Shown here: positions 55,812 through 60,393 of the stretch, piece after piece
How the letters are laid out: each line of letters opens with the position of its first letter
How positions within the stretch are numbered: the stretch's first letter is position 1
Assembly: GCF_002858865.1 (NCBI RefSeq)
Contig: NZ_PJRR01000019.1
Coordinates: forward strand, 124,001-188,000
Origin: Caulobacter vibrioides
Lineage (GTDB): Bacteria > Pseudomonadota > Alphaproteobacteria > Caulobacterales > Caulobacteraceae
Direction: 5' to 3'
Length of the DNA: 64,000 nucleotides
The notes under the pieces: model-generated
Database searches by the model: none
The model's input: only the letters and a program-made list of their open reading frames with translations
What the model was told of the DNA's origin: nothing
Translations under genes and position numbers: made by a program

Positions 55812-56969
55812 TCAGCCCTGTCGATAGTCTTTGGGCGTCTGTCCTGTGCGCGCCCAAAAGGCCTTGTAGAACGTCGAGCGCGAGTTGAATCCGGCGGCGA
55901 TAGCGATGTCGAGAACCGACATGTCGGTCTCCTTAAGCCATCCCTTGGCGGTTTCGATGCGCTGGTCATTGACGTAGTCGAAGAAGGTTCGCTCCAAGGT
56001 GTCGTTGAGCGTCTGAGATACGTGGTTTGGCGCGGCGCCGACACTCCGGGCCAATTTGGCTAGGGAAAGGTTCGGATCGAGATGCAGGCTTTTTTCGCTC
56101 ATGGTGCGGCGGATGCGTTCAGCGAGCCGTTGGGCATGGTCCTGGGTCAGGGCAGACCGCGCGTACTTGCGTGGACCGGACGTCTCCAGGTCTGAGTCTC
56201 CGACAGATTCAGCGTCGATCAGTTCGACGACCGAGCTTCTTAGCGAGAAGCAGATCAATAGCAGCAGCAGAGCGCCCGTCATAAGCAGCATAATCTCGCC
56301 GGGACGCGCGGTCGCCGAGGATAGATTGTCGGTCAGAAGGGCGGCCGTAGCGGAAACCCAGAGGACAACGACCAGGCCCATGAAGCCCTCTACCCAACGC
56401 ATCTCAAGTTGGTCGATGTTGGAGAACCGATCCTTGAGCCTAGCGCGATGGCGCGTCAGCAACCGCATGATGGCGACGACGTAGGCGCCCGAAGCGACCG
56501 GCCATGCGAGAACGAGCGCGAAAGTCGCCAAGGCCAGGGTCGCTGGCGCCGCGCCCGGCGGCAGATGGCCTTCTACGAGCATGATGCTCCGCTGGGCGCC
56601 CGGGAGAGCCATGTAGCCAATCGCGGTCAGCATCCCGAGAACAGGCAGGATCAGACGCCGGAGGCGGCTCGGCCTGCCTGCGGTCTGATCGCCAACACGA
56701 GCCTGGACGAACGCATGAAACGTCGCGGGCGCGGCCATTAGGACAGGCAAGAGCCAGGGCAGAAGAACCGGGAAGAGCGATCGTGCGAAGAACGCGAGCG
56801 GGGCTGGCGTCGCAAGCAGCGTCAGCACGATGAAAACCGCCGTCAGCGGAATGCGCCCGGCCTTGATCGGCCCGGAGAGCGCGACGGCCACGCCGGCGCC
56901 GCCGAGGCCGATGACCCAGGCGGCGAGAGCGATCATGGTCACAGACGACGTTGAACCGACTTCACCCAT
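55812..56969 (-). CDS. Membrane-embedded AraC-family regulator
   Basis: 385 aa. Residues about 1-250 contain roughly seven hydrophobic segments (for example FIVLTLLATPAPLAFFA, LALATFALVLAWPVASG, IMLLMTGALLLLLICFSL). Residues about 285-385 are an AraC-type DNA-binding domain (LSLAKLARSVGAAPNHVSQT, VLDIAIAAGFNSRSTFYKAF). This couples membrane sensing directly to DNA binding. ATG at 56969; Met12 is an alternative. Divergent (144 bp) from two tandem membrane-protein genes it probably controls. Confidence 0.88.
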   Translation of the reverse strand: MGEVGSTSSVTMIALAAWVIGLGGAGVAVALSGPIKAGRIPLTAVFIVLTLLATPAPLAFFARSLFPVLLPWLLPVLMAAPATFHAFVQARVGDQTAGRPSRLRRLILPVLGMLTAIGYMALPGAQRSIMLVEGHLPPGAAPATLALATFALVLAWPVASGAYVVAIMRLLTRHRARLKDRFSNIDQLEMRWVEGFMGLVVVLWVSATAALLTDNLSSATARPGEIMLLMTGALLLLLICFSLRSSVVELIDAESVGDSDLETSGPRKYARSALTQDHAQRLAERIRRTMSEKSLHLDPNLSLAKLARSVGAAPNHVSQTLNDTLERTFFDYVNDQRIETAKGWLKETDMSVLDIAIAAGFNSRSTFYKAFWARTGQTPKDYRQG

Positions 56970-57113
56970 CCGTGCGCCGCCCCCCTTGCGCGCCCAGAAC
57001 AGGACATCGGCGCAGGCTGCGCAAGCGGCGGAGCTGTCCGTCCCTTCACGATCAGACGACAGGCCCCGACTTCTTCGTCAGAGCAATGGCTCCGAACAGG
57101 AACGGAGCCGATC

Positions 57114-57794
57114 GTGCAGACAGAAATCATCATGGCCACGCATGTGGTCCCCGGCGTGCTCGCCGTGGCCGCCGGAGCGACAGCTCTGGCCGCGCCGAAG
57201 GGACGGTCCTTGCATATCCAAGCGGGCCGCATCTTCGTGGTCACCATGGGCCTGGCGTCCGCCGTCGGTGCTGCACTTGGTCTTGTTCGGGCCGAGACGT
57301 TCTACATCACCTTCCATGCGGGGGTGCTGGCCCTATGCCTTTTGGCAAGCGGATGGATGGCGGCGCGGGCTCAGCCAGGCGCTCTGGGGTTGGGCTCGCG
57401 CATCGTCGGGGCCTTGAACCTAGTCAACGCTGTCTCGCTCGTCTCCATCGGGGTGTTTGCCGCCCACTCCGGACAGGCCTTCCTGGGCTTCCCAGCGGAG
57501 AACTACCTGCTACTCGGCGGCATGGGCTTCGTGGCGGCGGTGGGTGACGCCAACCTGTTTTGGCGCCCGCACGCCAGCGAACGGCGACGCATTGCCCGGC
57601 ACTTGTGGCGCATGTGCCTGGGGTTCTTCCTTGCGGCCGGATCGGCGTTCGGCGGCCCAGGCGCCGCAGCCTTTCCCGAGGCGGTTCGCCGATCGGGCGT
57701 TCTGGCCCTGCCCGAACTGGTGATCCTGCTCCTGATGATCTTCTGGCTGGCCCGGACGCTTCTCACTCCATCGCGTCTGGAGCCGAGGCCATGA
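57114..57794 (+). CDS. Polytopic membrane protein, DUF2306-like (first of tandem pair)
   Basis: 226 aa with about six hydrophobic segments. It carries H10, then APKGR (27-31), H34 and AGRIF (37-41), a pattern repeated at nearly the same positions in the next gene. The pattern recalls DUF2306-type membrane proteins. The start is GTG at 57114 with GGAACGGAG upstream; ATG at 57132 is possible. The stop overlaps the next start (ATGA). Function unknown; the conserved His could bind haem or a metal (speculation). Confidence 0.75.
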   Translation: MQTEIIMATHVVPGVLAVAAGATALAAPKGRSLHIQAGRIFVVTMGLASAVGAALGLVRAETFYITFHAGVLALCLLASGWMAARAQPGALGLGSRIVGALNLVNAVSLVSIGVFAAHSGQAFLGFPAENYLLLGGMGFVAAVGDANLFWRPHASERRRIARHLWRMCLGFFLAAGSAFGGPGAAAFPEAVRRSGVLALPELVILLLMIFWLARTLLTPSRLEPRP

Positions 57795-58450
57795 GCGAGC
57801 CCCCGCTGGTGGCCCAAGCGCACTTCCTCGTCGGCTGCGCCAGCATCATCGCAGGCTTCCTCGCGTTCGCGGCGCCCAAGGGACGCCGGGTTCACCGCGC
57901 AGCAGGCCTCATTTTCCTCGGGAGCATGCTCTTCCTATGCGCAAGCGGCCTTTGGATGAGCCTCGCGCGGCAAATCCCCTTCACCGTCCTTCTGTCCTGG
58001 GTCGCGGCCCATGCGGTGATTTCCGGTTGGGCTGCGGCGAACCCTGGCGCTGTCGCTCGGGCGATCACGCGCTTTGCGCCCCTCTCCTCCTTAGCGCTTG
58101 TCCTGAGCGCGTTGACGGTTGGGGTCATGGCGGGCGGCGCTTCGGGCGGAGCGCTTAACGGCTTGCCCCCAATGGCCTTCGTCGGCCTTGCGGCCTTCGC
58201 CCTGCTCCTGGCCATTTTCGATCTGGCTTTCTCCAGAGCGACGGTCACCTGCAACGCTCGCCGCCGTGGTCGGCACGCCGGCCGCATGGGTCTGTCGATG
58301 TTTGTCGCGACCGGAATCTTTTTCTTCGGCAACAACAACGTGCTGCCTGAAGCTATGCGGACGCCCCCAGTGCTCTTAGCGCCGGTTCTGTTAGTCGTGG
58401 CGTTGACGATTGCTCATGTGGCCCGCACGTTCATGGCGCGGAGGCGATAA
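57791..58450 (+). CDS. Polytopic membrane protein, DUF2306-like (second of tandem pair)
   Basis: 219 aa with six or so hydrophobic segments. It is a diverged paralogue of the preceding protein: H11, APKGR (28-32), H35 and AG-x-IF (38-42), and similar C-termini (PEAMRTPPVLL here, PEAVRRSGVLAL there; ARTFMARRR here, ARTLLTPSR there). ATG at 57791 overlaps the upstream stop, so equal synthesis and a heterodimer are plausible. It converges on the DUF4345 gene 34 bp away. Confidence 0.75.
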   Translation: MSEPPLVAQAHFLVGCASIIAGFLAFAAPKGRRVHRAAGLIFLGSMLFLCASGLWMSLARQIPFTVLLSWVAAHAVISGWAAANPGAVARAITRFAPLSSLALVLSALTVGVMAGGASGGALNGLPPMAFVGLAAFALLLAIFDLAFSRATVTCNARRRGRHAGRMGLSMFVATGIFFFGNNNVLPEAMRTPPVLLAPVLLVVALTIAHVARTFMARRR

Positions 58451-58484: not shown

Positions 58485-58895
58485 TCACCCCTGAGCAGAC
58501 GCTCTCGACCTGGAGGGCGCAGCGGCCGCCACGAAACAGGCCGTGCCCATCACCAGTTCCAAGGCCGTAATCCAGACGAGTGCGGGGTTGGGTACCCCGT
58601 CCACAAGAAAGCTGAAGAGCCTAGCAAGGCCATAGCCGGAATAGACCACTGCGCAGGCGGTCAAGGCTACAGTTCGCAGCGCGACGGTGAACACCCCGAT
58701 CAGCGCCAGAAGACCCACAGCCAAGATTGCGCCGCCTGCGGCGCGCATCTCGTTCAGCAAGCCTGCTTCGGCGCTGAGGCGCACGCCGCCGGCCGCGTGG
58801 AATCCGACCGGGTCAGCCAGGATCGCGACGCCGATCACAAGGGCGATGCTTCCGGCGGCCAGCAGAAGGGCGGGGCGAAAAGGAAACGGGGACAT
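58485..58895 (-). CDS. DUF4345 family membrane protein
   Basis: 136 aa, four hydrophobic segments. NEMRAAGGAILAVGLLALIG in the middle is the DUF4345 hallmark (family recalled). ATG at 58895 with AAGGATCC upstream is preferred to the TTG at 58913. Downstream of the DUF1772 gene on the same strand (68 bp), probably one operon read from the divergent promoter near 59740. Function unknown. Confidence 0.82.
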   Translation of the reverse strand: MSPFPFRPALLLAAGSIALVIGVAILADPVGFHAAGGVRLSAEAGLLNEMRAAGGAILAVGLLALIGVFTVALRTVALTACAVVYSGYGLARLFSFLVDGVPNPALVWITALELVMGTACFVAAAAPSRSRASAQG

Positions 58896-58963
58896 CGAAA
58901 AGGATCCTTGCAAAGGGAAGGCCGGAACGGGGCGCGTGAGAACAGCTCCCGGCTGGCCAGTGA

Positions 58964-59452
58964 TCAGCTCAGCGTCAGGACGGCCATCAACATACAGGCG
59001 GCGGAAATCGCCGAGGCGACCCAGCGGATCGTGTTCCAGAAGGTCCAGCCCGGCACGTAGCGGCGCCAGTAGGCGTCCGCGATGGCGCCCTGGGGATCCA
59101 TCCGGTGCAGGCGCTCGTTCATCGGCACGTTGAAGACGAGCGACACGATGAACACGCCGACGATGTAAGAGGAGCCCGCCGCGAGGATCCAGGGTCCCGC
59201 TGGTCCCGCCCCCTGCCAGAGGACCCAGCCGACCAGGAGGGGCGATACAACCGCCATGCCGATCAGTAAGACCATGAACAGGGTGGGAAACACCTTTCGA
59301 TTGATGATCTGCATCGACTGGATCGCGCCTGTCGGACTGGACGCCGCCAGCGACGGCATCACGACTCCCGAGAAAGCGAGAAAGACGCCCGATACGAGCG
59401 CATAGGCGATGACTGAGAAGGCGCCGGCGATCAGGATTGTCTGGGAATTCAT
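58964..59452 (-). CDS. DUF1772 family membrane protein (anthrone-oxygenase-like)
   Basis: 162 aa with four hydrophobic segments. IINRKVFPTLFMVLL and FNVPMNERLHRMDPQG with the closing WRRYVPGWTFWNTIRW are typical of DUF1772, which includes fungal anthrone oxygenases, though most bacterial members have no known role. ATG at 59452. It follows a decayed SDR gene on the same strand by 11 bp. Confidence 0.85.
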   Translation of the reverse strand: MNSQTILIAGAFSVIAYALVSGVFLAFSGVVMPSLAASSPTGAIQSMQIINRKVFPTLFMVLLIGMAVVSPLLVGWVLWQGAGPAGPWILAAGSSYIVGVFIVSLVFNVPMNERLHRMDPQGAIADAYWRRYVPGWTFWNTIRWVASAISAACMLMAVLTLS

Positions 59453-59463
59453 GCCGTTCTCCA

Positions 59464-59715
59464 TCAATTGCTCAGCCAGGCGGCCCGGCGCAGATAGGTG
59501 TCGTCCGTCAGCTGGCGGAGCAGGAAGTCCGCCACATCCGGGCGACAGCATCAGGGTCCGAGATGTCTCCCGGCACGACGATCAAACGGTCCTTGGGGAG
59601 GCCCGATTTTTGGGGGCGACCGCGCGAGCGCCGTGACCTGCAGACCCTGCTCCAGAGCCTGTGGCGCCAGGCTGCGCCCAACGCTCCCGGTCGCTCCAAA
59701 CACGACAATGCGCAT
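59464..59715 (-). pseudogene. Decayed NAD(P)-binding SDR (atypical, NmrA-like)
   Basis: ATG at 59715 opens MRIVVFGATGSVGRSLAPQA, a typical atypical-SDR N-terminus with GxxGxxG. Translation then passes a C5A5 run into a frame ending at an internal stop. The +1 frame continues naturally as SGLPKDRLIVVPGDISDPDA. After that the original frame resumes with PDVADFLLRQLTDDTYLRRA, a typical SDR C-terminus, and stops at 59464. So one frameshift plus loss of roughly 100 internal codons. It heads the DUF1772-DUF4345 operon. Confidence 0.8.
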
Positions 59716-59728
59716 AGCGCCCCTTCAC

Positions 59729-59785
59729 TTGACACAGTGTCAATTGACATGGCGTCAAATGCTCGGCTACTAGACACCATGTCAA
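59729..59785. promoter_or_regulatory. Three operator-like palindromes at the tetR divergent promoter
   Basis: TTGACACAGTGTCAA (59729-59743) is a perfect 15-bp palindrome with a central A. TTGACATGGCGTCAA (59744-59758) abuts it, and TAGACACCATGTCAA (59771-59785) lies over the tetR start codon. All fit TTGACA-N3-TGTCAA. They sit between the TetR gene and the SDR/DUF1772/DUF4345 operon, so TetR probably represses both directions. Confidence 0.85.
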
Positions 59786-60393
59786 GTGAAAATTCGGAGA
59801 CCCGCCGCCGCATCCTGCAGGCGACAACGGACTTGCTGCAGGAAGGCCACGGCGCAGACGTGCGCATGTCGGACATTGCCCGGCGCGCCGGCATTACCCG
59901 GCAGGCGGTCTATCTGCACTTCGCAAACCGGGCGGAGCTGCTGATCGCGATGACGTTCCATGTCGACGAGATCAAGCGCTCCAACGACCGTCTCGCGCCG
60001 AGCCGGGCGGCGAGAACGGGTACAGAGCGCCTTGATGCCTATGTCGAGGCCTGGGCTGCCTACATCCCGGAAATCTACCCCTTCGCGAAGCCGCTGATGC
60101 TGATGGGGCCGACGGACGAAGCCGCTCGTGGCGCCTGGGCCCGGCGCATGCAGGACATGCGCGAGGGCTGCGAAGCCGCGATCCAGGCCCTCGAGCGAGA
60201 TCGGATGCTGTCAGCCGAACACACGGTCGATGCGGCGACAGATCTCCTGTGGACCATGATGCAGGTCGAAAACTGGGAACACCTCACCCAGGCTTGCGGC
60301 TGGTCTCAGGCAAAGTACGTGGAAAACCTGAAGCACATGGCCCGCAGGCTGTTTGTAGTAGATGGCTCGGTCAGATCCGCTCGAGAAGCCTGA
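59779..60393 (+). CDS. TetR-family transcriptional regulator
   Basis: 204 aa. N-terminal helix-turn-helix (MSDIARRAGITRQAVYLHFA, about residues 34-53) and a helical ligand domain with many Met/Trp residues. The ATG at 59779 has no ribosome site and lies inside an operator-like palindrome, which fits a leaderless transcript; ATG 59749 is a weaker alternative. Divergent from the SDR pseudogene operon. Ligand unknown. Confidence 0.9.
   Translation: MSSENSETRRRILQATTDLLQEGHGADVRMSDIARRAGITRQAVYLHFANRAELLIAMTFHVDEIKRSNDRLAPSRAARTGTERLDAYVEAWAAYIPEIYPFAKPLMLMGPTDEAARGAWARRMQDMREGCEAAIQALERDRMLSAEHTVDAATDLLWTMMQVENWEHLTQACGWSQAKYVENLKHMARRLFVVDGSVRSAREA

Follow-up and report, generated by a model that had tools for sequence, protein, structure and literature searches.

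Bacterial seven-transmembrane (7TM) sensory domains joined to intracellular outputs are exemplified by 7TMR-DISM and 7TMR-HD. Membrane-bound regulators of the AraC type are also already known as a class: in Saccharophagus degradans, 16 of the 31 AraC regulators are membrane-bound, and one with 6-7 TM segments lies beside its target gene, a cellulase (PMC2386152). Transmembrane transcription regulators (TTRs) in general are widespread, and most of those known are single-pass proteins (56%; PMC10269533). On GPCR-like or membrane-bound AraC regulators our literature search, outside which most subscription papers lay, returned class-level papers only.

Here we describe a locus of Caulobacter vibrioides in which the gene for a 7TM regulator with an AraC-type DNA-binding domain is divergent from a tandem pair of genes for two membrane proteins, A and B. 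It lies within a stretch of 64,000 nucleotides that was analysed as a whole, hereafter the window (contig NZ_PJRR01000019.1, positions 124,001 to 188,000). Like the described membrane-bound AraC and transmembrane regulators, the protein carries membrane and DNA-binding domains in one chain and has adjacent putative targets. It differs from them in its predicted GPCR-like 7TM fold, in a defined predicted operator and in a dedicated DUF2306-like operon. From 7TMR-DISM and 7TMR-HD these regulators differ in having no listed Pfam match to the 7TMR families and no extracellular domain.

Table 1. Features of the regulator-operator-client locus, in window coordinates.
Feature	Position	Strand	Description
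7TM-AraC one-component regulator	55812..56969	-	385 aa; HTH_18 match, hydrophobic segments, model
N-terminal 7TM domain of regulator, residues 6-246	56232..56954	-	N-out/C-in; predicted GPCR-like fold
AraC-type DNA-binding domain of regulator (HTH_18, residues 306-384)	55818..56054	-	Profile and fold matches
Predicted operator TGTCCGTCCCTTCACGATCAGACGACA	57035..57061	+	52 bp before A start codon; conserved across loci
Membrane protein A	57114..57794	+	226 aa; GTG start; divergent DUF2306-like
Membrane protein B	57791..58450	+	219 aa; paralogous to A; H74 as fourth membrane His

The original prediction of an AraC regulator with about seven membrane segments, divergent from tandem paralogous membrane protein genes, is borne out by the HTH_18 match, by the seven segments and by the paralogy of A and B (33% identity over 128 aa, E 3e-9). 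It had missed the operator between the genes and a third conserved His (H163 in A, H162 in B). An alternative ATG start at 56942 would give a regulator of 376 aa. The A and B reading frames share 4 bp (ATGA), and conservation in the closest relative, locus L123, speaks for the GTG start of A. A perfect inverted repeat over the ribosome-binding site of A (57088-57109, GGCTCCG-AACAGGAA-CGGAGCC) is absent in L123, and this hairpin was rejected as a conserved element. Directly after B, at 58485-60393, small membrane genes of DUF4345 and anthrone-oxygenase-like type on the minus strand are divergent from a TetR-like regulator gene on the plus strand, in what looks like a separate module. The DUF4345, anthrone-oxygenase-like, TetR, isocitrate lyase and malate synthase neighbours were not recurrent module partners in the fetched loci.

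The HTH_18 match of the regulator has an E value of 1.3e-19, above the cut-off, showing that the AraC/XylS double helix-turn-helix (HTH) is present, and Foldseek matches the fold of this C-terminal domain to the DNA-binding domains of YesN, AraC, MarA and SoxS. By this highly significant match and fold the protein resembles the AraC/XylS family, but it is unlike those members that have a soluble sensor such as PF12625, as its sensor is the 7TM domain and its predicted site is a 27-bp near-palindrome. Seven hydrophobic segments in the sequence are matched by seven membrane helices in the structure model (pLDDT 87.6), and the positive charge of loops 1, 3 and 5 indicates an N-out/C-in topology. 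With its membrane segments and a cytoplasmic HTH in one chain, the regulator is a TTR.

Comparison of regulator residues 1-246 with GPCRs gave VIA Z-scores of 15.8-17.4 over 213-241 aligned residues (rmsd 3.5-4.3), where the warning level for helical bundles stands at a Z of about 13-14. GPCRs, nearly all of them class A, made up all 50 of the PDB matches displayed for the 7TM domain. Foldseek gave a probability of 1.00 for the regulator against GPCRs, with a target TM of about 0.50-0.56 in the better matches even though the HTH domain was included. As an internal control, the likewise modelled protein A, which is also 7TM and comes from this locus, did not exceed Z 6.6 against any of the listed GPCRs. 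Our prediction for the 7TM domain of the regulator is a GPCR helix arrangement, by which we mean a likeness of fold and not homology. Class A GPCRs and the regulator would share this arrangement, the N-out/C-in topology and long cytoplasmic ends of TM5 and TM6; unlike GPCRs, the regulator shows no significant sequence homology to them, and its output is a fused DNA-binding domain. Between TM5 and TM6 lies a charged, conserved hinge, FSN-E-R-L-W.

At the sequence level, sub-threshold Pfam echoes of GPCR families are seen in 6-9 of 40 regulator members (7tm_1 4.5e-4, STE3 5.8e-4, 7tm_7 0.015), which are weak and come from related proteins that are hence not independent; the A family gave no such echoes. 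When 12 genomes were scanned with 7tm_1, nothing exceeded the cut-off and control genomes gave matches as well; the top four matches, all weak and below the cut-off, were 7TM-AraC genes of a clade whose clients are DUF4386 proteins. These data bear on a different explanation, namely that the 7TM domain is a generic seven-helix anchor, that its likeness to GPCRs stems from their abundance in the PDB, and that sensing takes place elsewhere. Z-scores for helical bundles are indeed inflated, a profile of the 7TM domain retrieved no GPCR from the PDB chain sequences, and the GPCR signatures are not conserved (DRY in 2/40 regulators, CWxP in 0/40, NPxxY in 6/40). We nevertheless find a mere anchor somewhat doubtful, because the Z-scores and aligned lengths given above, together with the N-out/C-in topology, contrast with the low maximum of protein A, because conservation of the domain extends from Alpha- to Gammaproteobacteria, and because the regulator is without any other sensor domain.

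Proteins A and B had been predicted to share H, APKGR, H and AG-x-IF at the same positions, and these motifs are real (H10, 27-31, H34 and 37-41 in A; H11, 28-32, H35 and 38-42 in B). A comparison of 114 non-redundant relatives found both His, as well as KG, G and F, to be near-invariant but the P and R of APKGR to be variable. In A numbering, the residues that almost never change are H10, K29, G30, H34, G38, F41, M45, R162, H163, R166 and M167, the last four forming an additional near-invariant motif of the RHLWRM type (R162-H163 to R166-M167). The family extends over Alpha-, Beta- and Gammaproteobacteria, Acidobacteriota and further groups. Against Pfam DUF2306 (PF10067), A scores 18.5 bits and B 27.9 bits, below the cut-off of 31.6, in a weak match that covers the first membrane helices; all 42 aligned A-family members match the same profile with E values of no more than 1, the best being 2.1e-9. 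Bona fide DUF2306 genes (cluster c8) adjoin A-like genes at several loci. On profile scores, A and B are divergent relatives of DUF2306 that are not filed as members. They have the invariant His and weak scores in common with that family, PraC included, and differ from it in falling below the cut-off, in the seven helices of the A model and in their paired organisation.

The view that no function has been assigned to these proteins is slightly dated, as the fungal DUF2306 membrane protein PraC is required in vivo for pramanicin-A epoxidation (PMC12895699). PraC is a distant relative of A and B, and the sole functional precedent that we found for them. The model of A (pLDDT 92) has seven membrane helices, and from the loop charges K29, H34, R159, R162 and H163 would cluster on the cytoplasmic side. 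Foldseek returned nothing credible for protein A in the PDB, and a sequence profile of A gave no match among PDB chains at E up to 10. The closest fold match of A among b-type cytochromes was the six-helix cytochrome b561 (4o7g_B), at Z 7.3 over 150 residues with an rmsd of 4.5, which is within the noise for helical bundles. Both are helical membrane bundles with several membrane His, of which most B-clade proteins have four, but helix count and His placement differ, and A has only three that are conserved. Because of the PraC precedent and the His pattern, our first guess, a tentative one, is that A and B have a membrane redox or lipophile-modifying role. The same switch might instead control non-enzymes, with A and B forming a transporter, permeability or membrane-protection pair that is induced against a membrane-active compound. 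This would suit 7TM proteins that are wholly embedded in the membrane and contain no known catalytic domain, and the regulator family's other clients likewise belong to the membrane or envelope (DUF4386, and MipA together with a CPBP-type gene); acidobacterial A-like genes, moreover, come after ABC-transporter genes. We consider it unlikely, as the invariant His/Arg/Lys cluster at the predicted cytoplasmic membrane face looks catalytic or cofactor-binding, and the one DUF2306 precedent is an oxidation.

The first genes of the tandem pairs fall into one supported clade of the A-family tree (19 rows, 100/99), the exceptions being L144 and the unrelated pair L186, and the second genes fall into another (18 rows, 100/96), with L144 inside and L186 outside. 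The duplication is therefore old, and the gene order has been kept. An overlap of exactly 4 bp is found in 11 of the 14 tandem pairs (WIN, the window locus, and L065, L066, L067, L069, L123, L127, L133, L135, L137 and L141). A fourth membrane His is present in 16 of 20 B-clade proteins where the others have Tyr, and in this clade Ile always replaces Ser at the position of A S177. In place of A, the partner of B at some loci is a DUF4386-like protein (L096, L098, L101, L151, L154 and L089), and of these partners the L089 copy alone passes the DUF4386 cut-off. Given two clades in fixed order and the 4-bp overlap, the heterodimeric effector that had been suggested is plausible.

A 7TM-AraC gene adjoins 12 of the 14 tandem pairs, counting L141, where the regulator is cut by the contig end. 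The two exceptions are L128, whose contig starts 1.35 kb upstream, and L186, which lies beside a soluble AraC. The gene pair might have turned out to occur widely without the regulator; what we see is the proposed co-occurrence of the three genes. In the whole set of 114 non-redundant A-family genes, 36 have a 7TM-AraC gene within two genes, 19 are close to a soluble AraC whose N-terminal domain is PF12625, two lie near another AraC and 57 have no AraC neighbour in the fetched stretch. These proportions are not population frequencies, because the loci had been selected for resembling A or the regulator. The 57 genes of the last group indicate that the activity of the protein does not need this regulator. 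Regulator and client are co-inherited: the 7TM-AraC label changes 3 times on the A-family tree, vs 16.1 when shuffled, with 0 of 500 shuffles as low. On the regulator tree, A/B-linked regulators form one dedicated clade (25 of 26 rows, SH-aLRT 95), beside a DUF4386-linked clade (support 98) and a weaker, MipA-linked third (73), and the client labels change 4 times, vs 14.2 when shuffled.

Several further arrangements were observed. The same genome has a second 7TM-AraC gene (L107, G000:C8:208824-209843), with a MipA/OmpV-type and a CPBP-like membrane gene after it. It also has a third A-like gene (G000:C6:126132-126767; L002, L076), divergent from a soluble AraC in which PF12625 is found at E 4.3e-44; this arrangement, the one counted 19 times above, is an instance of the same family being paired with AraC independently. 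In Sphingomonadaceae (L140, L142, L143, L145, L148, L149, L165 and L196) the A-like gene has no AraC neighbour and directly adjoins a gene of 1461-1472 aa, which in L143 reads as an RNA polymerase beta subunit. In Acidobacteriota (L152, L162, L192, L193 and L199) it is again without an AraC neighbour and comes after two genes, whose L152 copies look like those for an ABC-transporter ATPase and membrane protein. At L118, four paralogous genes stand in tandem after a DUF4386-linked 7TM-AraC gene, and the one that was read looks like flagellin.

The divergent gaps share the motif TGTCC[G]nnCC-N10-[G]GAC[GACA], in which the spacing from TGTCC to GAC is a constant 15 bp. The window carries it as TGTCCGnnCC-N10-GACGACA, a near-palindrome of 27 bp, and homologous loci in Alpha- and Gammaproteobacteria carry it too. 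Within the 3.97-Mb genome the window site is the sole exact match, one-mismatch matches are absent, and two-mismatch matches number 24 vs 12 for a reversed-pattern control, or about twice as many. Exact matches occur in 7 of 150 genomes of the order, five of them at 7TM-AraC/A loci; the reversed pattern gave one exact match across these 150 genomes. When each site was left out in turn, it outscored every one of the 2.09 million background positions in 18 of 23 loci, the window locus among them, and ranked first within its own locus in 19; in the remaining four the top-ranking position was apparently the same palindromic site on the opposite strand, shifted by 3 bp. The weakest sites are those of AT-rich Pseudoalteromonas.

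The GACGACA end points to the client in 22 of the 23 sites. At L127 and at the MipA-client loci orthologous to L107 (L105, L108, L109 and L110), where regulator and client are co-directional, the TGTCC-N15-GAC motif stands just before the client and not before the regulator. As the site thus precedes the client when gene order changes, it belongs to the client promoter. L107 itself has no scoring site, and no such site was found upstream of the regulator gene for the DUF4386-client regulators. The 27-bp site is predicted from its conservation and genome-wide uniqueness to be the operator through which the regulator controls A-B. Together with the conserved regulator-operator-client unit and a regulator tree sorted by client, it lends good support to the original prediction of a self-contained membrane-sensing module. 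That A and B are co-sensors binding and modulating the regulator (cf. ToxS for ToxR), with a mainly autoregulatory operator, would fit the tight linkage and co-inheritance of regulator and client, all of them membrane proteins, but is highly unlikely given that the operator follows the client promoter at the co-directional loci, that related regulators have unrelated clients and that A-like genes also occur with the soluble AraC type or with none.

Two observations concern the neighbourhood of the site. Upstream of the operator (57035), the element AACAGGACAT, which holds the TGTCC half-site on the other strand, is conserved between the window and L123 (4880-4900 region), and it may serve the regulator's own promoter. 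At L065, L105, L108, L134 and L144, a weaker second copy of the motif lies about 30-31 bp from the first; this distance of three helical turns suggests tandem binding.

Overall, we think it probable that the locus encodes a one-component transmembrane switch with a dedicated target operon, in which the predicted operator is used to activate A-B. The regulator would stay in the inner membrane, with its N-terminus outside and its AraC DNA-binding domain inside. Its GPCR-like seven-helix domain would probably bind a small lipophilic or periplasmic ligand, from outside or from the membrane, and the TM5-TM6 hinge would relay the change to the HTH, perhaps through dimerisation. Once stimulated, the regulator would bind the 27-bp site, which lies 52 bp upstream of A, and activate, rather than repress, A-B transcription, as most AraC proteins do. 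A and B, as two specialised, non-interchangeable DUF2306-like 7TM proteins, would probably act together in the membrane, and we guess that they modify (oxidise or reduce) or clear the lipophilic compound that is sensed.

Features that appear to be new in the searchable literature are the GPCR-like architecture, the A/B operon, and an operator that is conserved and comes with a client code. A broader reading, which we put forward as a real but minority possibility, is that Proteobacteria use GPCR-fold membrane receptors fused directly to an AraC DNA-binding domain, so that a single protein would make up the signalling chain from receptor to DNA. These receptors would share an operator code, would serve varied client operons, namely DUF2306-like pairs, MipA and perhaps DUF4386 (where we found no site), and might have a remote origin in common with eukaryotic GPCRs. 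If the fold is true, bacteria have small GPCR-shaped receptors with transcription itself as the output, which could be tested in common laboratory strains and could serve as biosensors for membrane ligands. With the predicted operator, the DNA target of the regulator is open to direct testing, and the operon tied to it would be an inducible, genetically tractable bacterial model for the DUF2306 superfamily, for which we found one functional assignment.
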